This document shows positions 26,801 through 46,700 of a stretch of 64,000 bases of DNA, piece by piece. Source of the DNA: Liolophura sinensis (Eukaryota; Mollusca; Polyplacophora; Chitonida; Chitonidae); the NCBI RefSeq assembly GCF_032854445.1, contig NC_088295.1, positions 78,582,028-78,646,027 of the forward strand, read 5' to 3'. A program made the position numbers and the translations under genes. The notes under the pieces are model-generated. The model was not told the DNA's origin, searched no databases, and saw nothing but the letters and a program-made list of their open reading frames with translations. The number at the start of each line of letters is the position of its first letter. Positions within the stretch are counted from its first letter, which is position 1.

Positions 26801-28958
26801 AGCTTTGAGCAGACAAAGAACCTCAGACGACATCCCAGATCTGTGAGATGATTTCTGTGATACAGGATCTCTATCTGATGTGATAACTGAAATAAAAAAG
26901 TTGTGTTACAATGTTTCCATCTGATATGAACAGCTATGATAAAGGAATATGAAACTATGACAATAATGGAAAGTATATAAGTACATATATGCGTACTTGG
27001 GGTTTTTAGTCATACTTAACAATTTAGCAGTTACTAGTATTAGGTGTGTGTAAGTATACTGTGTCTTCTTGTGGCAGGGTAAGCCAATGTCGCCACTGAA
27101 GTATCATGCTGAAGACGCCAGACATGACACCCCACCCAGTCACGTTATACTGACAGACAATGATCCAACCAGTCCTGTTTCCTTGCTCTAACCTCTTAGT
27201 GTTAAGCGAGGCAGCAACAAGTACCATTTTTAATGTCCTTGGTAGGACCTGACTCAGGTTTGATCCACACAGTAATGATACCTCTCCATCTGATGTGATG
27301 CTTAAAATAAACATCTATAATTCAGAACCTCCTGATATGTGACAACTGAAATGAACAGCAGTTCTTCTTATATCATTTACCCCAGTGGCATTGTAGCAGT
27401 CTGAGATCTCAAATTTCTCCTTAGGGTCAGACTGAACAGGTAACGGGATCGTCTGTTTTCCAACCGACTCGAAGCCTCCTGTCAGCAGTAAAACTCTAGA
27501 CTCCACAGGAATCTTCTCATCATTGGAGAAGTGAGAAGCTGATCTTAGGACACGCTGTACAGCAGCTCTGCTTTCTAACTCAATCAGGGCATAGTCCTAC
27601 GAACACACAAAACATTCTGATAAAACTCTTCACACCTTTCACTGTCAAATAATAATAAATATAAAATTACACTGCAAATAATTTAGATATGGAGACACTG
27701 ACTACCCACATCAATAGGTCAGCTAATGGTCTCACTGACTACCCTCATCAACAGGTCATCTAATGGTCTCACTGACTACCCTCATCAGCAGGTCATCTAA
27801 TGGTCTCACTGACTACCCTCATCAACAGGTCATCTAATGGTCTCACTGACTACCCACATCAATAGGTCAGCTAATGGTCTCACTGACTACCCTCATCAAC
27901 AGGTCATCTAATGGTCTCACTGACTACCCTCATCAATATGTCATAATGGTCTCACTGACTACCCTCATCAACAGGTCATCTAATGGTCTTACTGACTACC
28001 CTCATCAACAGGTCATCTAATGGTCTCACTGACTACCCTCATCAACAGGTCATCTAATGGTCTCACTGACTACACTCATCAACAGGTCATCTAATGGCCT
28101 CACTGGACTACCCTCATCAACAGGCAAATTAGATCATTAAACAGTCGCAGTGCAGGTTTCCCTATCTTTGACAGTTTTTTTTTCAGAAAGGATATCATTA
28201 TTAGCAATTAACAGACCTGTAACACTGTAATCCAGTCTGACCTGATCAATGTGATACTGAAAGGTCTGATTAAATTTATATGTCAGCGATCCATCTGACT
28301 TTGTTTGTCAATAAATTCTAGTCTAGTTACAGGCCTTCACTACATTACCACGTCTACAAGACACTGCAAGGCTACCAGGTACGTTACTTTTAACTTACCC
28401 GAATATGAGAAAAATGGAATATATTCATCACTTTTCCTAAAGGTTTTACTTGGTTGTATACAGAACTGATGTGTTTCTTGGACGGGATCTGCACAAGGAT
28501 ACTCCGGTGAGCTTCCTGACGACGAAGATGATACATCTGCTGGAAGGATACAGGGCGAGGGCTGGTAATATTCTGTATGATTTCATCAATTGGTCTCTGC
28601 ACTGAAATACAAAACCACAACATTTCTTGTGATTAAACTGTGACACAGATAGTCATGATCCTAAACAAACTGTCTAAATCACTAATTAGCTATGTACAGT
28701 TAAGATGATGCCATGGGTTTGATTTGAGCTTGTGAATTTTCAGGTTGTTGTTGTCAGCTCGACAGCCATCGGCGAAATGTAGTCTGACAATTTAGTGAGA
28801 GCTGTATCACAGACGTTTGCGAATGGAGAAACGAAACTACCTTTGGATGATGATTTCTGAATTTTTCGTTTGACCCCTTTGCCGCTGGAAAAACGCCGAA
28901 AACAACGTAGGGTTTTGCTACACATCATGTGCCCGACTTGGGCCATGGGGGCCGCCAT
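23805..28958 (-). CDS. MTPAP: Mitochondrial poly(A) RNA polymerase, complete, 8 exons, 578 aa
   Basis: Exons are 28958-28841, 28601-28399, 27596-27381, 26886-26674, 26347-26133, 25577-25351, 24821-24744 and 24271-23805. All introns are GT-AG, and the phases 1,0,0,0,2,1,1 give 579 codons, close to the 582 aa of the human protein. The basic N terminus (CSKTLRCFRRFSSGKGVKRK) looks like a mitochondrial transit peptide. Exons 2-3 encode the RNA-binding-like region (HRSILVQIP...DYALIELES). Exon 4 holds the nucleotidyltransferase signature FGSTVNGFGKHDCDLDM, giving Asp237 and Asp239; the third catalytic Asp is about residue 316 (IECDLS). The PAP-associated part follows (GPWVSNFMLTALVVFFLQ). The expected role is adding poly(A) tails to mitochondrial transcripts. 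The C-terminal tail is an unusual Gly/Asn/Gln/Asp repeat. It is head-to-head with the paralogue TUT1. Confidence 0.93.
25172..25213 (-). repeat. SINE 3' tail fragment
   Basis: catttatttgattggtgtct is the reverse complement of the SINE tail, here in intron 6 of MTPAP. Confidence 0.6.
27696..28131. repeat. Minisatellite, 37-bp unit, about 12 copies, in MTPAP intron 2
   Basis: cactgactaccctcatcaac followed by aggtcatctaatggtct repeats every 37 bp from 27696. One unit is 3 bp shorter. It does not resemble the flanking exon ends. Confidence 0.92.
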
Positions 28959-29323
28959 ATTGCAAATGGGAGCACTTAAATATTACCCGTGGAAAGATAT
29001 GATGAATGTTGTATATTACAATTTTGTGACGTCAGCGTTTCCACGGCAAGGTCTAATATTGCTTCCGAACGGCTGTAGTACATAAGTTTGTAGAAAAAAA
29101 TGTAACTGTTTGATTGTGTGGGGGGAAAATGTTAGCGTCGAAATATCTAAAATGACCCCATATCAGCCCGAATGTCGTGTAGTAGCAATGCTCCGTCACG
29201 TATGATTGGCTGCTGATGTCTTTGTTTCAGTGTACAATCACAGTGTGCACAGTTAGGCCGTGGGTAAATGTGACTCGTGGATAAGCTACTCCAGTGTCAC
29301 TACGGCGCGAATCGACCATAACG
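28951..29323. promoter_or_regulatory. Candidate bidirectional promoter between MTPAP and TUT1
   Basis: The two start codons (28958 minus, 29324 plus) are 365 bp apart and point outward. A perfect CRE palindrome TGACGTCA lies at 29027-29034. A YY1-type ATATGGCGGC lies at 28960-28951 on the minus strand, overlapping the MTPAP start. No TATA box stands out. Shared control is inference. Confidence 0.55.
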
Positions 29324-32300
29324 ATGAGTCTGTCTTGCGAAGTTTGTAACATAACTGTGCATTCTGGTACGTCTTTGCTATTGGTTGTTACACATTTAAA
29401 CTTAACCTTTAGCTAGTGTGACCTGTGTCTTGGAGCACAAATGGTACAATTACAAGCTGGCTGTTTCATTCAACATAACATCATTTAGGCCTGAGAATGA
29501 ATGTTATGGAAATTTTTTATTCCATTACTTTCATTTTCGTTTTGGATTTGGCCACAGAGGACATGTTTTGTCATGTCATTGTTAAACTTCGGCCAAATAA
29601 ATTACTTGTAGACTTATAATTTGAATAAAAGGCCTTCAGTGGAACTAGTGACAAACAGTATTAGTATTATTGACACATTACTTCAACTCAGGTTAGCCGA
29701 CAATTATCAGAGTGCCCTCTTTCACGTTTTGCCGCCACAGTATGGCTGAAATATGGCGTAACGCTTTGGTGGGCCATCATGGATGTAGCGGTTAACATGC
29801 CGGTGCGGCGCTATGACCCAGGAGCCTCTCACCAATACAGTCGCTGTGAGTTGAAGTCTATGTCATGAGGGGCTTCCTCTCCAGTCATGCGTGGGAAGGT
29901 CTGCAAACCGGTGGATGGTCTTTCCCAAGGCTTTGCCCGGTTTTCTTCGTCCAAAATGCTGGCTGCCATTGTATGAGTGAAATATTCTTGACTATGGCCT
30001 AGAATACCAGTCAAATATAAATAAATAAATTATTTCCATTTTGATATTAAATTAAGGTTCCAGATAACAACCCAACATTTAGGAGGGTGTATTAAAAGAT
30101 AACAAGCACGTACAAAGCACTTTTTCAGTTTTAGCTTGTATATATGTTAAGTATGTAGGAGTGGGCCTACAGGTGAGATCAGGCGTTTGTCTTTGATTCA
30201 GACGCACAAGTCACTGGTTCAGTTCCAGCCTCAGGCAGATATAATTTTTTGATTCTTAGGGGCCTTGTTTAGTGACAGCAAGTGGTAGGCTGCACATTTA
30301 TTTTCAGTACAGTGTTGTGGTAAGTAAGCTTTTCTGGAGATCACTCCTAGTCACTTCTCATATGACTGAAACATTATTCATGTTAATCATACAAGTGTGA
30401 TAGAAAGTGAAATAATTCTTCAAAATTATTTTTATCATACAAATCAATCAGTAGGGGTCTGTCAGCAACCTGCGAATGGTTGTGGGTTTCCCCCTGGCTG
30501 TGCTCGGTTTCTACCCGCCATAATGTGGGTCGCCATCTTATAAGTGAAATATTCTTGGGTACGTTTTAAATCAAATCACCAATCAAATAAATAAATAAAT
30601 CAATCAGTAGGTATTTAAGCTTGTGGTCTATGTTGGTTTGGTGTTTCCTTTTATTAGTTCATATAGAAGTTTGTTATGATTACTTGTGAACTAGATGACG
30701 TTTGTTTACTTTCAGACTCTGTGATGAAAGAACATTGTCAAGGAAGAAACATAAGCGAAACCAGATTTTGTATGACAGACGTAAAGACCTTGCAGACAGG
30801 AGTGTATTCACAAGGGGCTTCCCCCCCAAAACAGAAGAGAGCACGCTGAAGGAATATTTCTCTAAATATGGAGAAGTCCAGAGAATCCTTCAGGACAAGG
30901 ACAGAGTAAGATGACTTTTTCTTTTTTGTATTCGTTCGTCATTTATTCCTCAGCAGTTTAGTAAATCTGTCCCTCTGTGGCTAGAGGAAGTATTTAAACC
31001 TGTAGGTGAGGACTGGATATGTGGTCTGTAGCTTGTTCCCATGTGACAGTTTCCTCTTCATGGAAGTTTAGTGTTGTTTACCTAAAATTTGGTATGCCAA
31101 ATGCTTTTTCAGAAGTTGTTCTGAAAATTAATCAAATTGTTCATAAATCTCATTAAGGCAAATGAATCAAACAGATTCAAGCAAAATGTGTCCATTGAAA
31201 AATACTAAATTTTAGGTGAAATATGGTAATTTGTCTTCCACAGATAGCCGGCCATTGATCCCGCCTACAAAAAGGAAATTGTTCAGTTAAAAACAAAACC
31301 ATGAAAACACAAAAATGAAAAAAAAGATCAATTTTCAAACCAAACCGTGGACAAAAAGCAATGTGTGGGCAGGCTCAAAATTGTAGTGAACCTTTTACTT
31401 GTTGGGCTACACCATCAGGAGGATATGTAGGGTACATAGAATTTACACTGATTTTCTCCTCCCATAAATTCAGCTGCTTTTGTGTAAATGCATTATTCAT
31501 GAGTATGGCATAAAATTCAAGTAAATGACTCAAAATGGCTGCAGCCTGTGAATGATCAACATGTTGGTGTGAGCTACAGATGGGATGTGAACTCTGCTGT
31601 CAGCTCAATATGCCTCACTACAGTTACATGTAGAGTGCATGCCTGAAGGGTGCACTGGTTCATATCAACATATCACACTCTATGCTATTTATTTCCTGTG
31701 TTCTAAAAAGAATGACATTGGGAATCAATAAGAATAACCTGCATTCATGAAATGAAAAAGGAGTACAAGTGCAACCTAGTTCATAAAACATTTTAATAAC
31801 AGTGTTAACTTGTCATTTATTTTTTTAACTTTTAATTGTTGTTTTATATACATTATTTAAGTGAGAATGTCCTGGTTGTTTTGTAGGGTGTATATGCCAT
31901 TATTGAGTTCACAAATGGGGATGCCTTGTCAAAGATTTTCATGGAAAAACATCACGTAATATCTGGACATAAAATTGTGATCAAGCCACGGGAGTTCAAG
32001 CCCCCTGTGGCCAAGCCGTCTGACCCAGGGGCCCGTGTCCCACAGAAGAGACAAGGGGTGTTCCAGCCGGTGGCTTGCAAGATGCGGGAAAGTCATGCGT
32101 TACTGACAGACTTTGACTTCAGGGTGGACTGTTTGCCAGAGCCAGAGAGTTTGAGGAGAGTTCTCCAGTCCTGTCACACGGTTAGTATTTAAGGGTCTCC
32201 AGTCCTGTCATTCAGTCAGTATTTTAGGATTTCCAGTCCTGTCCCATAGTCAGTACTGAGGGGCATTCAGTCCTGTCCCACAGTCAGTACTTAGGGGTGT

Positions 32301-35300
32301 CCAGCCCTGTCCCACAGTCAGTACTTAGGGATGTCCAGTCCTGTCCCACAGTCAGTACTTAGGGATGTCAAGTCCTGTCCCACAGTCAGTACTTAGGGGT
32401 ATCCAGTCCTGTCCCACAGTCAGTACTCAGTGATGTCTAGTCCTGTCCCACAGCCAGTGCTTAGGGGTGTCCAGTCTTTCCCACAGCCAGTGCTTAGGGG
32501 TGTCCAGTCCTGTCACACAGTCAGTACTCAGTGATGTCTAGTCCTGTCCCACAGCCAGTGCTTAGGGGTGTCCAGTCTTTCCCACAGCCAGTGCTTAGGG
32601 GTGTCCAGTCCTGTCACACAGTCAGTACTCAGTGATGTCTAGTCCTGTCCCACAGCCAGTGCTTAGGGGTGTCCAGTCTTTCCCACAGCCAGTGCTTAGG
32701 GGTGTCCAGTCCTGTCACACAGTCAGTACTCAGTGATGTCTAGTCCTGTCCCACAGCCAGTGCTTAGGGGTGTCCAGTCTTTCCCACAGCCAGTGCTTAG
32801 GGGTGTCCAGTCCTGTCACACAGTCAGTACTCAGTGATGTCTAGTCCTGTCCCACAGCCAGTGCTTAGGGGTGTCCAGTCTTTCCCACAGCCAGTGCTTA
32901 GGGGTGTCCAGTCTTTCCCACAGCCAGTGCTTAGGGGTGTCCAGTCCTGTCACACAGTCAGTACTCAGTGATGTCTAGTCCTGTCCCACAGCCAGTGCTT
33001 AGGGGTGTCCAGCCTTTCCCACAGTCAGTGCTTAGGGGCATCCAGTCCTGTCACACAGTCAATACTTATGAATCTCTAATCCTGTCCCATGGTTAATACT
33101 TAAGGGCCTCCAGTCCTAGCACAAGGTCAGCACTTAACAGTGTCCAGTCCGGTCATCCTGTGCAGTGCTGTGTGGCTGCTGTAGGGTACGGCAAGGCTAC
33201 TACTCAGGGTTGTCCAGTCCTGTCCCACAGTCAGTACTCTGCGACGTCTAGTCCTGTCCCACAGCCAGTGCTTAGGGGTGTCCAGTCTTTCCCACAGCCA
33301 GTGCTTAGGGGTGTCCAGTCCTTCCCACAGTCAGTGCTTAGGGGCATCCAGTCCTGTCACACAGTCAATACTTATGAATCTCTAATCCTGTCCCATGGTT
33401 AATACTTAAGGGCCTCCAGTCCTAGCACAAGGTCAGCACTTAACAGTGTCCAGTCCGGTCATCCTGTGCAGTGCTGTGTGGCTGCTGTAGGGTACGGCAA
33501 GGCTACTACTCAGGGTTGTCCAGTCCTGTCCCACAGCCAGTACTCAGGGGCATCCAGTCCTGTCCCACAGCCAGTGCTTAGGGGTGTCTAGTCCTTCCCA
33601 CAGCCAGTGCTTAGGGGTGTCCAGTCCTTCCCACAGTCAGTGCTTAGGGGCATCCAGTCCTGTCACACAGTCAATACTTATGAATCTCTAGTCCTGTCCC
33701 ATGGTTAATACTTAAGGGCCTCCAGTCCTAGCACAAGGTCAGCACTTAACCAGTGTCCAGTCCGGTCATCCTGCGCAGTGCTGTGTGGCTGCTGTAAGGT
33801 ACCCCAAAGCTACTGTGCATTGCTGTGTGGCTGCTGTAGGATCCCGCAAGGCTACTGTGCAGTGCTGTGTGGCTGCTGTAGGGTACGGCAAGGCTACTGC
33901 ACAGTGCTGTGTGGCTGCTGTAGGGTACGGCAAGGCTACTGCGCAGTGCTGTGTGGCTGCTGGAGGGTACCGTAGGATTACTGTGCAGTGCTGTGTGGCT
34001 GCTGTAAAGTACCACAAGGCTACTGTGCATTGCTGTGTGGCTGCTGTAGGGTACAGCAAGGCTACTGTGCTGTGCTGTGCTGTGTGGCTGCTGTAGGGTA
34101 CAGCAAGGCTACTGTGCTGTGCTGTGTGGCTGCTGTAGGGTACTGCAAGGCTACTGCGCAGTGCTGTGTGGCTGCTGTAGGGTATGGCAAGGCTACTGCA
34201 CAGTGCTGTGTGGCTGCTTTAGGGACCGCAAGGCTACTGCGCAGTGCTGTGTGGCTGCTGGAGGGTACCGTAGGGTTACTGTGCAGTGCTGTGTGGCTGC
34301 TGTAAAGTACCACAAGGCTACTGCGCAGTGCTGTGTGGCTGCTGTAGGGGCCGCATATTTTTACTGTTTGGTTCTCAGTTTCTCACAAAAAGTGAGGTCA
34401 GTTTATTGTAAATTCTAACATACTTTGAAAAAGGTTAACTCTGAAAGCAATGTTGAGTGAAGTGTGCCCAAATTTATCATCTATGCACAGTTGCCGTCCT
34501 CATCACAGAGCTTTGGACGGTCTCATTTTGAAAATAAAATAGGAGGGGCTGGGTTGTGCTGTCAAAACGTTTATTTTCTTCAAAATTTATTAGCTCACAT
34601 TTTTCTGAGGAAAAAATGAAGGCAAAATGAATTTACATATAATTGTTTCCTCTACTCGCCTAGGTGGAGGGCCAGATGAAGGTTCTGTGTGAGGAGTTGG
34701 AACTGGAGCGGGACGATCTTAAAGCCAGATCCAAGATTGTTTCCACGTTGAATGAGCTCTTTGAACAGTTTTTTGCTGGTGAGGTCTTCTGCAATTTGCT
34801 GTGTGCAGTTTTGTTTCCTCTGATAATAGTTGAAGTAATAAGAGTTAAGACATGACAGTACATGTACCATTGTGTACTAGGTTGTTGGTTACACATATTT
34901 GACTCCTTTGACAGTGACTTTCGAACAGTGAGTTATGACAAAGGACCATTGTGTACTAGGTTGTTGGTTACACATATTTGACTCCTTTGACAGTGACTTT
35001 CGAACAGTGAGTTATGACAAAGGACCATTGTTTATTAGGTTGTAGGATACATATATTTGGTATTCTCTTGTAACTGGTTACAGGACAGTGAGTTATGACA
35101 AAGGACCGTTGTTTATTAGGTTGTAAGATACATATATTTGGTATCCTCTTGTCAATGGCTACAAGACAGTGAGTTATGACAAAGGACCATTGTTTATTAG
35201 GTTGTATGATACATATATTTGGTATCCTCTTGTCAATGGCTACAAGACAGTGAGTTATGACAAAGGACCGTTGTTTATTAGGTTGTAGGATACATATATT

Positions 35301-38300
35301 TGGTATCCTCTTGTCAATGGCTACAGGACAGTGAGTTATTACAAAGGACCGTTGTTTATTAGGTTGTAGGATACATATATTTGGTATCCTCTTGTCAATG
35401 GCTACAGGACAGTGAGTTATGACAAAGGAGCGTTGTCTATTAAGTTGTAGGATACATATATTTGGTATCCTCTTGTCAATGGCTACAGGACAGTGAGTTA
35501 TGACAAAGGACCGTTCTTTATTAGGCTGTAGGATACATACATTTGGTAACCTCTTGTCAATGACTACAGGACAGTGAGTTATGACAAAGGACCGTTGTTT
35601 ATTAGGTTGTAGGATACATATATTTGGTATCCTCTTGTAACTGGCTACAGGACATAGAGTTATGACAAAGGACCGTTGTTTATTAGGTTGTATGATACAT
35701 ATATTTGGTATCCTCTTGTCAATGGCTACAGGACAGTGAGTTATGACAAAGGACCGTTGTTTATTAGGTTGTAGGATACATATATTTGGTATCCTCTTGT
35801 CAATGGCTACAGGACAGTGAGTTATGACAAAGGACCGTTGTTTATTAGGTTGTATGATACATATATTTGGTATCCTCTTGTCAATGGCTACAGGACAGTG
35901 AGTTATGACAAAGGACCATTGTTTATTAGGTTGTAGGATACATATATTTGGTATCCTCTTGTCAATGGCTACAGGACAGTGAGTTATTACAAAGGACCGT
36001 TGTTTATTAGGTTGTAGGATACATATATTTGGTATCCTCTTGTCAATGGCTACAGGACAGTGAGTTATGACAAAGGAGCGTTGTCTATTAGGCTGTAGGA
36101 TACATACATTTGGTATCCTCTTGTCAATGGCTACAGGACAGTGAGTTATGACAAAGGACCATTGTTTATTAGGTTGAAGGATACATATATTTGGTTCTTC
36201 TTGTCAGTGTCTTTAGTACAAGGAGTTATGACAATGGATCATTGTTTATTAGCTTGTAGGTTAGATATATTTGGCTCCTCTGACAATGGTTTTGGCACAA
36301 AGGGTTGTGACATGGACCTGTTTCTTGACTTGAGGACTGCAGAGAGGCTGGAAAAGGAGAAGTCTGGAAAAGTCCAGTATCCAGTGCATGTCATCAATCT
36401 CACCTCCTGTAATTGTGTGAGTATGCATCTAATGTCTCAGGAGCCTCCCATCTTAAAAGTAAGAAGAGTATTGTTATGATACATATATTTGGTATCCTCT
36501 TGTCAATGGCTACACATTGTAACAATTAAATCCAGAATGATTATATACTAGAGTGCTGTTTAATCTTGTACCGTACTCAAGAAAGGTTGACTTGTACAAT
36601 CATCGCCAGGTTTACAGGTGGAAGAAACGCTTTATTCGATCCTATGACGGGTCAAAATGTTTGATACTTTGAGTTCTTCCGAGTCAGTCAGTCAGGCGTC
36701 TGACTGCATGAGGTAAAGTCATCATTTTGATGACCGGGGCTCAATGTGAGGCATGATGCAAAGTCATCATTTTGATGACCGGGGATAAATGTGAGGTCAT
36801 TTTTGTTTTAAGCTTTTAAAGACTAGTGATTGACCAGACATTTAGACCTCCATGTGACCTCATTAAGTAAGGTTTTGAAAGAGCCTGATGGTCATCATAA
36901 AATGATGATGCAGTCAGATATGATTTTAATGAAAAAATTCTGTTACCAATATCCTTATGATTCAAACATCATGATACGTGAATGCGGACAACATGTTGAA
37001 TTGATTTTTTCAGCCAAAGTGTAAAGAAGATGTTGAGCCCAAGTATTCACAACTGCATCTAAGAGGTATAAAGTCTTTGGAAGGAAAAGAGTTTCCTGTG
37101 TCTGCGAAAAGTCTGTCAGAGGTCACGTTATTCGACAAGGTCAAATTGGTGGGACGAATTCTGACTCAGTTCCACCCTGGGTGTAGTGATGCTCACGTCA
37201 TTCCAAGCATCCGCTGTCCAGTTGTGCGATTCAGTCATGCCCCAACGGGGATCAAGTGTGACCTCTCTGTTAATAACAGGTACAATACTTCCTCTATTTC
37301 ACACAGTTCACCTACTTTCTCTAAAGCACTTTTTTTCAGTGAAATCTATGCATACAATTACTACAAAAATGACTCCATAATTATTTGTTTGTATAACTAC
37401 AGATGCAAGGTGCATAAAAATGTGTAAATTCTTTCTCTGCACCCCAAAGCTCTTTCAGAATGTTTAAAATATTGGTTGTAGTGGCAGAAGAAAAGGTTGA
37501 AGAATCAGGGTAACTCAGATTACCCTTATATCTCTAAATAAGTCATGAACGCGAGAGTGGAAATTTCTTAAGTTCGTTGTGAAACTCCAGTCTCATAAAT
37601 GATCTAGATGGCACCACAAAGGCACAAACCTTTTCCGCAGCTAAATGTACAAATCCACTCATTGCAACCAAAGGGACAGTACTCTGTCCTCTCTATAAAT
37701 AGGGAAGAATGGTTTAAAATATTCATGGATCACCACCAAAATGTAATAGGCTGGTCCTTAGCCTTAGGCCAACGAGTGCACAAAATTTCATCTAATTCCT
37801 TGTGTTTCCACAAGTTTGCGGAAAGACAGACAAATAATTGGCAGCAAAAAGCCTTCTCTTTTCACTCATGATTGTCTGTAGGCGATTATTGTTCAGTGTT
37901 ATTTTTATTAAAGTGATCAGATGTGTACAGTGTTCTTATTTCACCATAGAAGTGTCATCAAAAATTGATCAGATGTGTACAATGTACTTATTTCACCACA
38001 GAAGTGTCATCAAAAATTGATCAGATGTGTACAATGTACTTATTTCACCATAGAATTGTCATCAAAATAATAAGCTCAACTGCCTTTTCCTTTTAGACTT
38101 GGGCTGCAAAACACCAAACTTCTGAAGTTTTTCTGTAACGTTGACCCCCGAGTTCGCCCTCTTGTGTTCGCCCTGAGGTATTGGGGGAAGCTCAAGGAAG
38201 TATCGACTAATCCTGTGTCTGGACCACGTCTTACAAACTATGCTTTGAGTCTCCTTGTGGTTTTCTTCCTGCAGAACACACAGCCACCCGTATTACCCAC

Positions 38301-41300
38301 TATGGCTGAGTTAGAAGTGTTACCAGGTAACATTGCCTTTATCAACCTTACCAAGTAAAACTGCCTTTATCAGCCTCACCAGGCAATACCGCATTTATTC
38401 ACCTCACTAACACGCAGGTTTCCATGGCAATCACAATTGGTGTGTGATAAACATTATACATAAAACATACTTGACTTTTCCCACATGTAGTTAACAGTTA
38501 ATAAATGTCCTTAGTTTGATTCCAAACTATTCAAAGGTTATGAACAAAAATGCCAATCCATGCTCAGAATAAAAACATTTTGGATGTGTGCCCATTTTGT
38601 GTTGATTGAAAACAGACTGTCATGCCATCACCAAGCCTGCACCAGAAGAACAGTTCCACAGCAGGCTTGCAGATATCTGTGGGGTTATACTCATACTTAT
38701 TCAAGTCCATACTTACATGTAGCTGACACACCTGTGTTTTAGAAAATACCTCGAGGACAATGATAGATGGATGGGACTGTTCATTCCAAGGCCAAAAGCC
38801 TGAGGGGAGAGAGGAGAACAAGAGTTCAGCAGGTCAGTCTGCTGGTATGAAGAGAGAAAGTTGAACAGCCAGAATTCAATTGCTGATACTAAACCCTTCT
38901 TTCTTCATGCAGATTAGGCTGTTTAATTATTCCAAGCTTTTCACTTGATGAAAAAAGGCTGATATTTGGATTAAGTCAGACATGGTTTGGGAATATGGTA
39001 TATAAACAAGCACCAGAAGACTCGAAAAACAAATCTCAAACACAGATCTCATCTCAACTCATCCGAAATTGCACAGTATTGAGTTCCACAGGTATGGAAA
39101 ATGAATGCCAGCTGAAAATTTTTCGGCGTTATTCACCACCATATCAAAGTTATGTTCCCAGAATGCACATTTCTAGGATTCAAACTGAAAAGGCACTTTC
39201 ATAATGATGGCGAATGGAACATGAAAATTTACCACCAGTTTAAATGTTGCTTCGGTTCTCTGTACTGAGGCCAGTCATGATCATGGGATGTGACATTTAT
39301 GTCAAGTGCATTATGGATGACAGTGTCGAGAATTTGTCAAAATGATGCCAGGTCTGAATACATACGTTTCACAGTCTTTAATTTGTAGTTTATTATGGAT
39401 TTGTAATGAAAGTGTAAAAGTAGGCGAGATCTGAATACATACGTTTCACAATCTTTAATTTGTAGTTTATTATGGATTTGTAATGAAAGTGTAAAAGTAG
39501 GCGAGATCTGAATACATACGTTTCACAGTCTTTAATTTGTAGTTTATTATGGATTTGTAATGAAAGTGTAAAAGTAGGCGAGATCTGAATACATACGTCT
39601 CACAGTCTTTAATTTGTAGTTTATTATGGATTTGTAATGAAAGTGTAAAAGTAGGCGAGATCTGAATACATACGTTTCACAGTCTTTAATTTGTAGTTTA
39701 TTATGGATTTGTAATGAAAGTGTAAAAGTAGGCGAGATCTGAATACATACGTTTCACAGTCTTTAATTTGTAGTTTATTATGGATTTGTAATGAAAGTGT
39801 AAAAGTAGGCGAGATCTGAATACATACGTCTCACAGTCTTTAATTTGTAGTTTATTATGGATTTGTAATGAAAGTGTAAAAGTAGGCGAGATCTGAATAC
39901 ATACGTTTCACAGTCTTTAATTTGTAGTTTATTATGGATTTGTAATGAAAGTGTAAAAGTAGGCGAGATCTGAATACATACATTTCACAGTCTTTAATTT
40001 GTAGTTTATTATGGATTTGTAATGAAAGTGTAAAAGTAGGCGAGATCTGAATACATACGTTTCACAGTCTTCAATTTGTAGTTTAATATAGATTTGTATT
40101 GAAAGTGTACATGTTGTTTAAATTCCAGAAGACTTGCTGGTGCAGTTTTTCCAGTTTTACTGCAGTATTGACTTCAGTAATGTGGTGTTATCAACACGAA
40201 CAGGCCGGATCATTCCAGTGTCTGAATTTTATGAATCTTTAAGCAAGAACGATAGAGCTAAATACTTCAAGGTAAGCTTTTATCTCTGATGGAAACCAAT
40301 GCATAAATGATCTTGATAGATGTTTTGTGAAGGCTGTGCCAGGGAGTCAAACTTAATCTATTTTGTGTTTGAACACAGCTTTTGAACTGCGTGTAGGTCT
40401 GGCTGACTGTTTCCAAAAAGCTGTATATAACTGATTTAAACACAACTGTATTTTTTTAATCCTGGGAATTAAAGTGAAAAACAACTAACCAATGGGTAAA
40501 ACTTTAGATTTCCAGTACCAAAATTTGAGCATTTGAATGAGTAAAATCGAGATGACGCTATGGAATCGGCCACTGTGTTGTTATTTCATAATGGTATCCA
40601 CAGTTTTGCCTGTTCTATAAAGAGGATCTCTCTACATTCTGGGCATGTGCCGAGCACTGGAATCTACTTCCCCAAATATTCAAACCATTCACACTGCTAG
40701 TTATTGATACAGTAAATGTAACCCAATTATTTTCTTTCCTCAATACTTACAGCGCATTCTTCACAGCCTTCTACACCATTTTATGTTCTTCTTTTCTCAG
40801 ACAGGACCAATATCAGTGCAAGATCCATTTGTCCTTGACCACAACATCACCCTGAATGTCAACGACAAAGTGCGACTGAAACTGGTGGATGAGCTCAACA
40901 ACGCCCGGCAGATTTGTCAGGAGTCTTTTTCGCCTCCTGCAGATAAGCAGGAGTTATGGGGCCTGCTATTACTGTTTGACTCCTCACCAGAGGGTGCTAC
41001 TGGAGAGCTGAACACTTCTGGCTCTAAATCTGAAGGGAAGTCCATCCAAAATGCCTTCTGTGTTGTCCTGAAGATGTCTCAGATGTCTGAAAGCATGGTG
41101 AAATACCTGAACAGCTGCCCTGATTACAGGGTAGAGTGGGTGTTAGCTGTGTGTAGATTTCTACAGATCATGCTCACAGACATCTTATTGTTTGACTGTA
41201 CGGTAGAATGGGACGGCCAGGCAGTGTTACCCGAGACTGTGTGCAGCCAGGCTATGAACAGCGTCAAACTGCAGGCAGACTCAGGAGGGATACCCACATC

Positions 41301-42009
41301 TCAGTCAGACAAAGGGAGATCACCCAAAGCATCCTCCACTAGTGTTGTTGCTGCTGATAGAGTGGAAAGACCAAGTAGTGAGACACCCATGGCTGTAACA
41401 GACAGTGGAAATGAGTCCCCAGAAAATCCATCTGCACAGGTGTCTCAACGTCTTCCAGGTGACTCAGCGGCTCAGCGAGCTGACACAAATAAAAGATGCA
41501 GGAAGGAGGATGAAATCTCTTCAGATTCAGTGAAAAGGTGCAAAAATGAGACCAGCGTGAGTACAGGAGAGGTGAGTGACATGCAGAAGGTAGAGGCTGG
41601 CTGCTCCAAAACTGACAGACGTGAGCAGCATGACCTGGCACTGACGAGGTCAAGTGGTCGCCTGCCATGTCTAAGGCTTCAGTGCAGTTCTGTGTACCGA
41701 ACTTGGAATGGCAGGAAACCTGTGCGTAGACACCTGGTCAGCAATGGAGCTTGTGACAGCCTGGAGCTGGAGAGGAAAGTCACAGAGGGTTTGCTTAAGG
41801 CTGACATACCTGCTAAGAAACCTGTCCTCCAGTTTACCTGTGAGATAGAGGCTGTCATAGAACCAGGTAAAACTGCTGCACTCATCGCTTTTAAACCGGG
41901 AAAAGTCGGTGCAAAGGAGTTTACATGCTTTTATCCATTTGCCAAAACTTACCTGACGAAGGCTGTGGACAAGTACCTGGCAGAAACCATTCCACAACTC
42001 TCTGCTTAA
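29324..42009 (+). CDS. TUT1: U6 snRNA terminal uridylyltransferase / Star-PAP, about 914 aa
   Basis: Exons are 29324-29366 (tentative), 30716-30905, 31887-32180, 34664-34778, 36253-36416 (or to 36458), 37014-37279, 38097-38326, 38743-38832, 40129-40271 and 40801-42009, with stop TAA. Domain order matches vertebrate TUT1: an N-terminal C2H2-like finger (CEVC), an RRM (SVFTRGFPP ... GVYAIIEF ... KPREFK), then the catalytic signature FGSSDNGFGTKGCDMD with a third Asp in KCDLSVNN. Next come NYALSLLVVFFLQ, IDGWDCSF, VQDPFVLDHNI and a C-terminal KA-1-like region (YRTWNGRKP ... YLAETIPQL). A Lys/Arg cluster (KRCRKED...VKRCK) may be a nuclear signal. The expected role is U6 RNA 3' uridylation and poly(A) addition to selected mRNAs. 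The long Pro-rich insert of the human enzyme is much shorter here. Exon 1 does not join exon 2 in phase, so a small exon or a different start is missing from the model. An ATTAAA lies at 42321-42326. Confidence 0.9.
29771..30030 (+). repeat. Diverged SINE copy
   Basis: The head is degraded, but gacccaggagcctctcacca, cgctgtgagttgaag, the core and the ATAAATAAATAAAT tail are recognisable. It lies in TUT1 intron 1. Confidence 0.75.
30447..30606 (+). repeat. 5'-truncated SINE copy
   Basis: It starts inside the core (gtcagcaacctgcgaatggt) and ends with an AAATAAATAAATAAATC tail. Confidence 0.75.
32163..33775. repeat. 34-bp tandem array derived from the TUT1 exon 3 donor
   Basis: The first unit starts at 32163 inside exon 3 and spans the exon end at 32180 (ctccagtcctgtcacacg, then gttagtattt). 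The next units begin at 32197, 32231 and 32265, and several dozen follow. Toward the end the array is organised in roughly 306-bp higher-order blocks (near 33139, 33445 and 33752), which also contain single 42-bp units of the next array. Confidence 0.93.
33776..34350. repeat. 42-bp tandem array in TUT1 intron 3
   Basis: cagtgctgtgtggctgctgt followed by agggtacggcaaggctactg repeats about 13 times. Because 42 is divisible by three, open frames run through it on both strands. These are repeat artefacts, not genes. Confidence 0.92.
34865..36252. repeat. 81-bp tandem array derived from the TUT1 catalytic-exon acceptor
   Basis: About 17 units with an 81-bp period (for example at 35011, 35092, 35173 and 35254) each contain ttgtttattag, then ttgtaggatacatatatttg. 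The last unit runs into the true acceptor (ttgtttattag at 36242-36252) and exon 5, which begins cttgtaggttagatatatttg. A partial unit recurs after the exon at 36475-36516. Confidence 0.95.
37322..37512 (+). repeat. Undescribed interspersed repeat, copy 1
   Basis: It shares most bases over about 190 bp with 50462-50650: tatgcatacaatta, a central gcaaggtgc/gcaagcttc block, cagaatgttt and agaat-aggg. It lies in TUT1 intron 6. Confidence 0.65.
37660..37845 (+). repeat. Possible retroelement remnant
   Basis: catggatcaccaccaaaatg ... cacaaaatttcatctaattc ... gacagacaaataattgg resembles a widespread metazoan repeat tail. Identification is from memory only. Confidence 0.3.
37914..38069. repeat. 52-bp tandem repeat, three copies
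   Basis: tgatcagatgtgtacaatgt starts at 37914, 37966 and 38018, in TUT1 intron 6. Confidence 0.9.
38320..38403 (+). repeat. 28-bp triplicate of the TUT1 exon 7 donor
   Basis: Units at 38320, 38348 and 38376 begin ttaccagGTAAC, ttaccaaGTAAA and tcaccagGCAAT. The first spans the real exon-intron junction at 38326/38327. Confidence 0.85.
39345..40114. repeat. 77-bp tandem array, about ten copies, in TUT1 intron 8
   Basis: aggcgagatctgaatacata starts at 39422, 39499, 39576 and so on to about 40038, with a first, variant copy near 39345. The array ends some 14 bp before the acceptor of exon 9 (AG at 40127-40128). Confidence 0.95.
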
Positions 42010-43784: not shown

Positions 43785-46700
43785 CTATTTCTTCTTCGCA
43801 GCATTCTCGTCTCTGATCAAGGCCAAGCACAACTTACGGTAATCCCCTGAAATATCATCCTGTAATGGACAAACAGGTTGAAAATATATCATAATTCTAT
43901 AAAGTTCACATCATTTACCAAGACTGCACATTATATGAAACACTAAGGATATTTTCACAGAACTACTGAATTTAATTTCTAATTTTTTGGAACTGACATG
44001 CAGACTTTAATGCCAGAAGACAAAGTGATTTACTGTGGAACACAAAAAGGCTGGAGAAAGTTCATTTACCAAGTTCTGTGGAAGTGCATTCTGTTTTTCC
44101 ATTGTCTAATGATCAGTCCACTTAATACACAAATAGAGTTACTCTAATTTCTCAACCTTTTCGCATGTGAAAGAGCAACTTTCAGTGCAATTCATGCGTA
44201 TTTTTAATTTGATTTTGGAGACCACATTTGTTGGATTTGCCAGTCCCAGGGCTTCACAAAAAATATAATTTTATCAGTTAAAACAAAGGGTTGAAGAATT
44301 ACAGTAGGTATAAAATGATTGTACCCACAGAGCATGGGCAAACCATTTGCTTGATGTCTACAATCGATACATGTATACGAATTGTGGAATGCACTAGAAA
44401 TGTGCTTGCAATAGGCACATGGAGTCATTCAACAGCATTTAAAGTGTTACACGCAGATGTACTGTCTTAAAAATAGCACATGTTTGGGATACACATTGTA
44501 AAACAATACCTTTATAAACATGCCAAGTGTTTGTTTGTAAAGTCGTTGGAATTGCTCCTTTATCTGGACCATGTCAACTTCACAGCGTGACACAAGAACA
44601 CGGCAGACTGTGTCATCATCTGTGCCCAACCCTTTCATAGCACCATGCAGCTCATTGGCAAAGTGGGCAGCTTTGTTCCTGATACAACGCACTGCAGGCA
44701 AAATATCAGGTGTCTAAGTATTAGAAGTGAGGATAAAAGACGCAATAGTGAGTACGCAGAAAAAACAAATCTGCAGGTGTTCTGGAGGAAATCTTGAAAG
44801 CCCTATATGTAAATGTGGCAACAACTTGTGAAAAGAATACTCTAACATTACCTTTTTTTCTGTGTTTCATGTTACACTTAAAAATATATCACTTGTTGGA
44901 AGGAAGCCAGGGCAGGGATCACAAAGCGATCTTAGACTTAAGTCAAAATTTCAATCCTTAAACTTGGTATGTTCTTTTCCATTACTTTAGCTGAAATTCA
45001 CATTGGTCAAGTAATATTTTGACATTGTTATGAAAATAACAATTTTAATGTGATTTGAGGCCAGAGAAATTTAATAACTCAAATTTAACTCAATACAATA
45101 CACATTTCATGTTCCCAAAAGTTCCAATTTTGATGTTTTTGTGTAAGTATATATCTACTTGCAGCATTTATAAATTTTTCCCACCTCATGCTGGCTCTGC
45201 TCGGTTTCCTCCCACCGGAAAGCTGGCTGTCGTCTTATAAGTGAAATATTCTTGAGTATGGCGTAAAACACAAATCAAATAAATAAATATAAATGTTTCC
45301 ACTTTCAATTTCAACATCCCAAAAGCAACAGATTACCTTAAAAATAGAAATTTATTATCAGCCTCAGATCCCCAAACAATGGGATGACTTACCTATGGAC
45401 AGCATGCCTGCCTTGAGATCCCCTGACATCTCTGAACTTATGGTATCCTCTATGTCATTGTTACATATCTTGGCATACTCCTGGAATGTCGCCCTGAGCT
45501 GTGCATAGCTTCTGGAGACCAGAATGGTGTGAAAGCGAGACTCATCCGTCCCCCATTTCTTCTCACCGGCATCCAATAAGGCCTGGGCATCTTGCTTAGC
45601 TTTGTTTCTGTCAAATTCCTTGCTCTCATCCCGAGTGGCTTGAAGCAGTCCAATGAGAAGACGTTTGAAGTGGCCGGATGTGTCAGAGCCTACTTCATTC
45701 TCCATATCCTTGCCAAACACTGTAACACACACAAAAAACCATCTCAATATACACCATGCCCAATTCGTCGACTAATGAAAGCAATGAAGATCCTACATTT
45801 TTCCACCATCACAACTACTTTATACAAATTGCTTTGCCATCTCTCAAAGTCAGGAGGGGGCCTCCGTGGCTCAGTCGGTTAGCGCGCTAGCGCAGCGTAA
45901 TGACCCAGGAGCCTCTCACTAATGCGGTTGCTGTGAGTTCAAGTCCAGCTCATGCTCTCCGGCCGTAAGTGGGAAGGTCTTCCAGCAACCTGCGGATGGT
46001 CGTGGGTTTCCCCCGGGCTGTACCCGGTTTCCACCCACCATAATGCTGGCCGCCGTCGTATAAGTGAAATATTCTTGAGTACGGCGTAAAACACCAATCA
46101 AAAAAAAAAAAAAAAAAAAAAAAATCAAAGTCAGGAGGCCATTACATTTTAAGCCTGTAAAAACCTACACTTCCTCCTTTTTCAAACTAACCACTTTGCC
46201 TGACGAACAGAAACAGATGAAGTTGGAGATGAACAGTTGTCAGCATTAAAGGTATTAGGCCTGTTTCAAAAACATATATTTTATAGACCTTGTACCCTGA
46301 ACAAACCCACTGTATATCGTTTGCCTCTACTCACATGTTTTGTATGCTTCCTTCATAGCTGTCAGCTGAGCATTGCTCCTAGTACAGATCATTTCAACAA
46401 GGACCTTCTCATCTGTGCCTAATCCCTGTAAAGCAAAATGAAGAATCAGTGTGAAATATTAACGTGTACATGTTGCATATATAAATGTAAAACTTAACTT
46501 TCGGGCATATGAGACAAGGTAAACGAACACCTCATCTTATGCAACTTACCAGGTGTTAAAAACCTGACAGACATTATTAAAATGAGCAAGAGTGGACATG
46601 TGACACAAACATCACAGAACATAGCACTGTTGATACTGATAAAGAAAATAAGAATCTGAGGTGCTAAACAGAGAATGAATATCCTTAATTGTACAGAGGT

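Follow-up and report, generated by a model that had tools for sequence, protein, structure and literature searches.

The window analysed here is a stretch of 64,000 nucleotides from the chiton Liolophura sinensis (RefSeq assembly GCF_032854445.1, contig NC_088295.1, positions 78,582,028 to 78,646,027 of the forward strand), and it carries a gene in which several splice sites lie inside tandem repeats. Eight exons of this gene were found (30716-30905, 31887-32180, 34664-34778, 36253-36416, 37014-37279, 38097-38326, 40129-40271 and 40801-42009), and their spliced frame is clean over 869 residues; the exon numbering used here allows for one earlier, first exon that was not located. The predicted protein contains the Pfam domains RRM_1, MTPAP-like_central, PAP_assoc and TUTase, and also the RL domain. 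A search of solved structures with 529 of the 869 residues returned Star-PAP/TUT1 entries as the best matches (E 3.1e-67), with mitochondrial relatives at E 7.1e-50 and 1.9e-43 for the same 529 residues; the names of these entries are ones that we take to denote TUT1 and MTPAP. Domains and nearest structures support the identification of the gene as TUT1 that had been made from a sequence-only reading. Mitochondrial poly(A) polymerase, suggested by exon 5 alone, appears the more distant of the two enzymes and is rejected on the spliced protein. TUT1 has a zinc finger at its N-terminus, and a simple pattern matched no zinc finger in 27001-30716 of the plus strand. Published abstracts describe TUT1 as the enzyme that makes the U6 snRNA 3′ tail, which is required for splicing. 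Annexin exons lie downstream of TUT1 on the minus strand (44447-45771).

Table 1. Features in and around the boundary-spanning arrays of TUT1, in window coordinates; a slash marks a splice site.
Feature	Position	Strand	Description
Exon 3 donor array	32163..33753	+	34-bp units that begin within the final 18 nt of exon 3 and its donor
TUT1 exon 4	34664..34778	+	Donor CTG/gtgagg; clean spliced frame; aligned to TUT1 structures
ACATGTACC in intron tail	34860..34868	+	8/9 identical to ACATGGACC; candidate breakpoint homology
Units 1-2	34864..35021	+	79 bp each; ungapped exon match of 73%
Units 3-17	35022..36252	+	81-bp family, last unit 80 bp; acceptor in all but unit 8
Units 3-17, donors and end	35022..36252	+	Putative donor ACA/gtgagt in 13/15; ends in the true acceptor, ttgtttattag/C
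TUT1 exon 5, catalytic (FGSSDNGFGTKGCDMD)	36253..36416	+	Donor TGT/gtgagt
ACATGGACC in exon 5	36310..36318	+	Partner of ACATGTACC in the candidate breakpoint homology
Unit piece in intron 5	36475..36514	+	40 nt, identical (100%) to the corresponding part of three units
Exon 7 donor array	38320..38407	+	Short; 28-bp units across the donor; found by TRF only

Intron 4 contains 17 tandem decoy units, the first with its exon-like start at 34881 and the last at 36173, and the real exon 5 follows at 36253. This is the position at which the array had been reported from the sequence alone; the span then given, 34865-36516, holds for the array, and its distal part takes in a piece that belongs to intron 5. 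Exon 5 stands between the array and this displaced 40-nt piece. The Tandem Repeats Finder output (34925-36289, 81 bp x 16.9, 92% matches) places the array among the minisatellites, and the unit holds both the intron end and the exon start of the adjoining real exon: the intron end accounts for about 17 nt, and each of the 17 units shares 13-16 of 17 of these letters with the real site; the other 62-64 nt or so are homologous to the first part of exon 5. Units 1 and 2 are 79 bp long, the last is 80 bp, and the others are 81 bp. Among the matches listed, the DNA of the array matches only its own locus in the assembly.

The derivation of the units from the acceptor and first bases of the catalytic exon, as originally proposed, is borne out by alignment. 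In local alignments with exon 5 the exon part of all 17 units outscores every one of 200 dinucleotide shuffles, a result that answers the concern that the resemblance might be no better than chance; unit 2 scores 48 against 27 for the best shuffle, and the narrowest margins are those of unit 9 (26, best shuffle 22) and unit 11 (36, best shuffle 30). Units 1 and 2 align with exon 5 without gaps across the boundary (79 nt, 73% identical), in agreement with the earlier observation that the first two units match further into the exon. The uniformity ascribed to the units is overstated, since the 11-mer ttgtttattag and the 20-mer exon relic, both said to be kept in each unit, are exact in 12 and 8 of the 17, respectively. 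The description of some 17 decoy 3′ splice sites is right as to the number of units; the acceptor AG is kept in 16, unit 8 having none at the aligned position. Judged by these alignments, the array is real and homologous to exon 5.

Many of the units also carry a putative 5′ splice site, ACA/gtgagt, which is present in 15 of the 17 and went unnoticed in the sequence-only reading, as did two more arrays at exon boundaries of this gene (below). An AG and a donor occur together in 14 units, which therefore resemble complete pseudoexons of 47-49 nt. Splice-site strength was scored with a model trained on exons sampled from this genome (79 donors and 73 acceptors from 82 loci, described below); the model is rough, with sites picked automatically, eight loci with boundary arrays excluded from training, and general consensus frequencies as the seed. 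By this score the real exon 5 acceptor is weak (5.4, near the 5th percentile of sampled-exon acceptors), and nine of the 17 decoys reach 5.8-6.1; in most units the decoy acceptor scores 4.3-6.1, and the lowest tenth of sampled-exon acceptors corresponds to 6.0. The decoy donor scores 5.7 in 15 of the 17 units, compared with 4.6 for the donor of exon 5 itself.

Use of these sites would be expected to bring an early stop. When exon 4 is joined to any of the 17 decoys and read to the real donor, a stop is met within 1-33 codons; the 15 pseudoexons that were modelled each lead to one after 11-19 codons if included. Once the units are left out, exons 4 to 6 read through in one open frame. An early stop in every modelled case supports the prediction that use of a decoy would cost the cell the enzyme. 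The related statement that the units stop in frame after the exon relic holds for units 3-16, which stop after 11 or 17 codons, and for unit 17, which stops after one, and fails for units 1 and 2, whose frame meets a stop only in the following unit. Both splice sites together with a premature stop on use, one of the marks of a regulated poison exon, are predicted from the letters of 14 of the 17 units.

Two further splice sites of TUT1 lie in arrays of the same anatomy. At the exon 3 donor there are 32 copies within 11 mismatches of 34, the real one counted, and one more with 14; the best match to this unit in most of the remaining window has 15 mismatches of 34. Most of intron 3 is occupied by two minisatellites (32163-34349), with periods of 34/306 bp and 42 bp, the first of which begins within exon 3. 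At the exon 7 donor the next copies match at 24/28 and 20/28 positions, and the last has GC in place of GT. Arrays make up 42% of the TUT1 gene body.

The frequency of such arrays elsewhere was estimated from exon loci picked independently of arrays. The chiton assembly has been described as 632 scaffolds with a total of 609,495,693 bp, a longest scaffold of 96,433,062 bp and an N50 of 37,343,639 bp (PMC11068029, in the part of the paper drawn on here), and the species was renamed Liolophura sinensis by a correction (PMC12441733); the assembly used holds 609,464,459 bases in 632 contigs, with the window on contig 1. The sample of 82 loci drew on 38 of 135 kinase matches, at 35 loci, and on 47 of 73 myosin-head matches, at 47 loci; these were chosen mostly for short open frames and taken with flanks of 1,000 and 500 bases; several loci overlap or share one gene, and at three (L042, L063 and L072) two matched exons were counted as one. 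A splice site lies inside a minisatellite at 8 of the 82 loci, three as acceptors and five as donors, and these are evenly divided between kinase (L041, L043, L049, L055) and myosin-head loci (L083, L094, L104, L118), the splice point of L094 being uncertain by six bases. Near misses at L064, L078, L088 (both sides), L097, L099 and L107 were excluded after the letters were read. At L104 (C3:25740387-25741581) about 115 bp of a myosin-head exon, together with its donor, recurs in tandem, with 5.1 copies at 98% in the sampled stretch. With the three in TUT1 the total is eleven boundary arrays, so the peculiarity to TUT1 or its catalytic exon that the sequence-only reading had implied is not supported.

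In TUT1 itself, 3 of 15 splice sites fall in arrays, compared with 6.3 expected from circular shifts with array bounds set by hand. Arrays cover 6.6% of the flanks in the kinase sample and 19.1% in the myosin sample, from which about 4.6 kinase and 17.9 myosin edges would be expected inside arrays, compared with four observed in each (8 of a nominal 164 sampled edges). No enrichment of arrays at splice sites relative to flanking sequence was seen in TUT1 or the 82 loci; the number of sites in arrays does not exceed the prediction from placement, and splice sites are therefore not the targets of arrays. Minisatellites abound around these exons. Since the myosin edges fall below the prediction from coverage, arrays at edges may carry a cost, and some that cross an exon edge survive, perhaps at that cost. 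These placement and frequency figures are rough, as the loci are few, tend to cluster by gene and in part overlap; within that limit the sample suggests that boundary arrays are frequent in Liolophura sinensis. In 8 of the 11 boundary arrays the real site is equalled or outscored by one decoy or more; the exceptions are the exon 7 donor of TUT1, L041 and L118, where no decoy reaches the real score. Site strength alone therefore does not set real sites apart, and as the reason that decoys are passed over it is insufficient in those 8 cases.

Arrays of this anatomy have been described in amphioxus, a cephalochordate, where PMC3087553 reports boundary arrays in globin genes, cites the case of Adh3, uses the name mirages and proposes that introns are gained from them; PMC3902484 adds the genes TnC and PGBD5. 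As far as the excerpted text of both papers goes, the likeness to the chiton is close in Adh3, the globins BflGb6 and BflGb9, TnC and PGBD5: the unit spans the intron-exon boundary, the arrays lie at an acceptor or a donor with AG or GT signals in many units, and the inner units are homogenised and the edge units are not. The published amphioxus genes thus also count against a peculiarity of TUT1. The two systems differ in host, which is no part of the definition, and in dimensions, the chiton unit being 81 bp compared with 10-72 bp in Adh3 and 150-160 bp in the globins (PMC3087553, same excerpts), and the chiton array having 17 decoys compared with 6 and 3 units in two BflGb6 haplotypes. Unlike the amphioxus mirages described, those of chiton TUT1 number three in one gene, one of them at the catalytic exon. 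By anatomy the chiton arrays are the same kind of element as the amphioxus mirages, in another phylum. Minisatellites with variable internal tandem repeats in human segmental duplications likewise sit at exon-intron boundaries (PMC2812944, in the text available); there transcripts support new introns, whereas the chiton copies, by reading frame alone, appear to be entirely intronic. Intron gain by tandem genomic duplication (PMC4974935, PMC2891723, as excerpted) shares with the chiton the tandem copying of a boundary segment, but no new intron position was seen in the chiton. In the abalone TSSK1-like gene an intron minisatellite with a 27-bp array is reported, the excerpt not stating whether it crosses a boundary (PMC6905558), and among the papers listed there was no published case of a boundary-spanning minisatellite in a mollusc.

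The TUT1 array is very probably a mirage, that is, a minisatellite expansion that is tolerated and ignored by the spliceosome, probably through exon definition. It may have begun with one tandem duplication of about 79 bp (about 20 nt from the end of the intron with about 58 nt from the start of the exon) in an intron 4 that would have been about 100 nt long. A candidate breakpoint homology, the near-match between ACATGTACC in the intron tail and ACATGGACC in the exon, perhaps aided this step; these nine bases, at 34860 and 36310, would predict a 78-bp unit, and the outermost two units have 79 bp. Slippage or unequal exchange would then have expanded and homogenised the units, and the 92% likeness within the array, set against 73% between units 1-2 and the exon, suggests that both processes came after the first duplication. 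Selection would act only on the copy joined to the exon body, leaving the rest to decay as intron. Under exon definition an acceptor would be paired with a donor lying downstream, at the end of an exon of normal size, and it is proposed that the units are tolerated because this pairing bypasses short upstream pseudoexons; at donor arrays the same rule would favour whichever copy lies closest to the exon body. In amphioxus, RT-PCR reportedly points to regular splicing (PMC3087553, restated in PMC3902484, both in part), from which we infer that the decoys are passed over in the chiton as well. Being ignored is no rule, since boundary repeats in human duplicated genes are reported to lead to alternative splicing and new introns (PMC2812944, likewise in excerpt).

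The same sites could be read as a bank of regulatory poison exons, used at some rate to yield premature stops and mRNA decay, with array length setting the level of TUT1. The 14 units with both AG and a donor stronger than that of exon 5, the nine acceptors that outscore the real one, and the stops in all 17 exon extensions and all 15 pseudoexon inclusions fit this reading, but decayed copies are expected to hold stops, most decoy acceptors lie near the lowest tenth of sampled acceptors, and the same anatomy recurs at unrelated genes and at donors. An exon of 47-49 nt is, moreover, short. A regulatory bank is thus very improbable; no function of the array in TUT1 need be assumed, and a regulatory use is unsupported. 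A variant in which the array acts as a splice-based feedback sensor, a change in the supply of U6 or of the spliceosome raising decoy use and hence the share of stop-containing TUT1 mRNA, with length as the gain, would be a long shot.

An intron gain under way, in which a unit becomes a real exon and the remainder a new intron, would suit units 1 and 2, which are open through their own exon relic, and the 14 units with an AG and a donor, and such a model was proposed for the amphioxus globins (PMC3087553, in the text excerpted); every modelled present use nevertheless ends in a stop, and with an intact frame from exon 4 to exon 6 when the units are omitted this is very unlikely. A misassembly of the array, or of the number of its copies, is more doubtful still, common as this fault is at tandem repeats: many units differ, which makes reads easier to place, and boundary arrays of this kind number eleven in total. 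The read depth of 14X speaks for an artefact, but the reads are PacBio HiFi with a mean of 8,347 bp, compared with an array of 1.4 kb (PMC11068029, from the same part of that paper).

The chiton arrays extend to a mollusc the boundary minisatellites that were suggested as possibly more general among cephalochordates (PMC3087553, as excerpted). About one exon locus in ten (8/82), in a small and clustered sample, lies beside such an array. If this is true genome-wide, the chiton would offer natural decoy experiments on how the spliceosome chooses real splice sites, and a source of intron-gain candidates caught early. More generally, repeated decoys, often as strong as the real sites by a simple score, must be ignored for proteins to be made.

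Two observations lie apart from TUT1. At 673-892 the window holds two identical 110-bp tandem copies that look tRNA-like by eye; scans of the whole window for tRNAs (ARAGORN) and with Rfam found none. On contig G000:C99, seven COX1 matches, one of them lower-scoring, recur at a spacing of about 15.5 kb, as if a mitochondrial genome had been assembled as a concatemer; the mitochondrial order reads nad3-nad2-cox1-cox2-atp6, which is the molluscan order.
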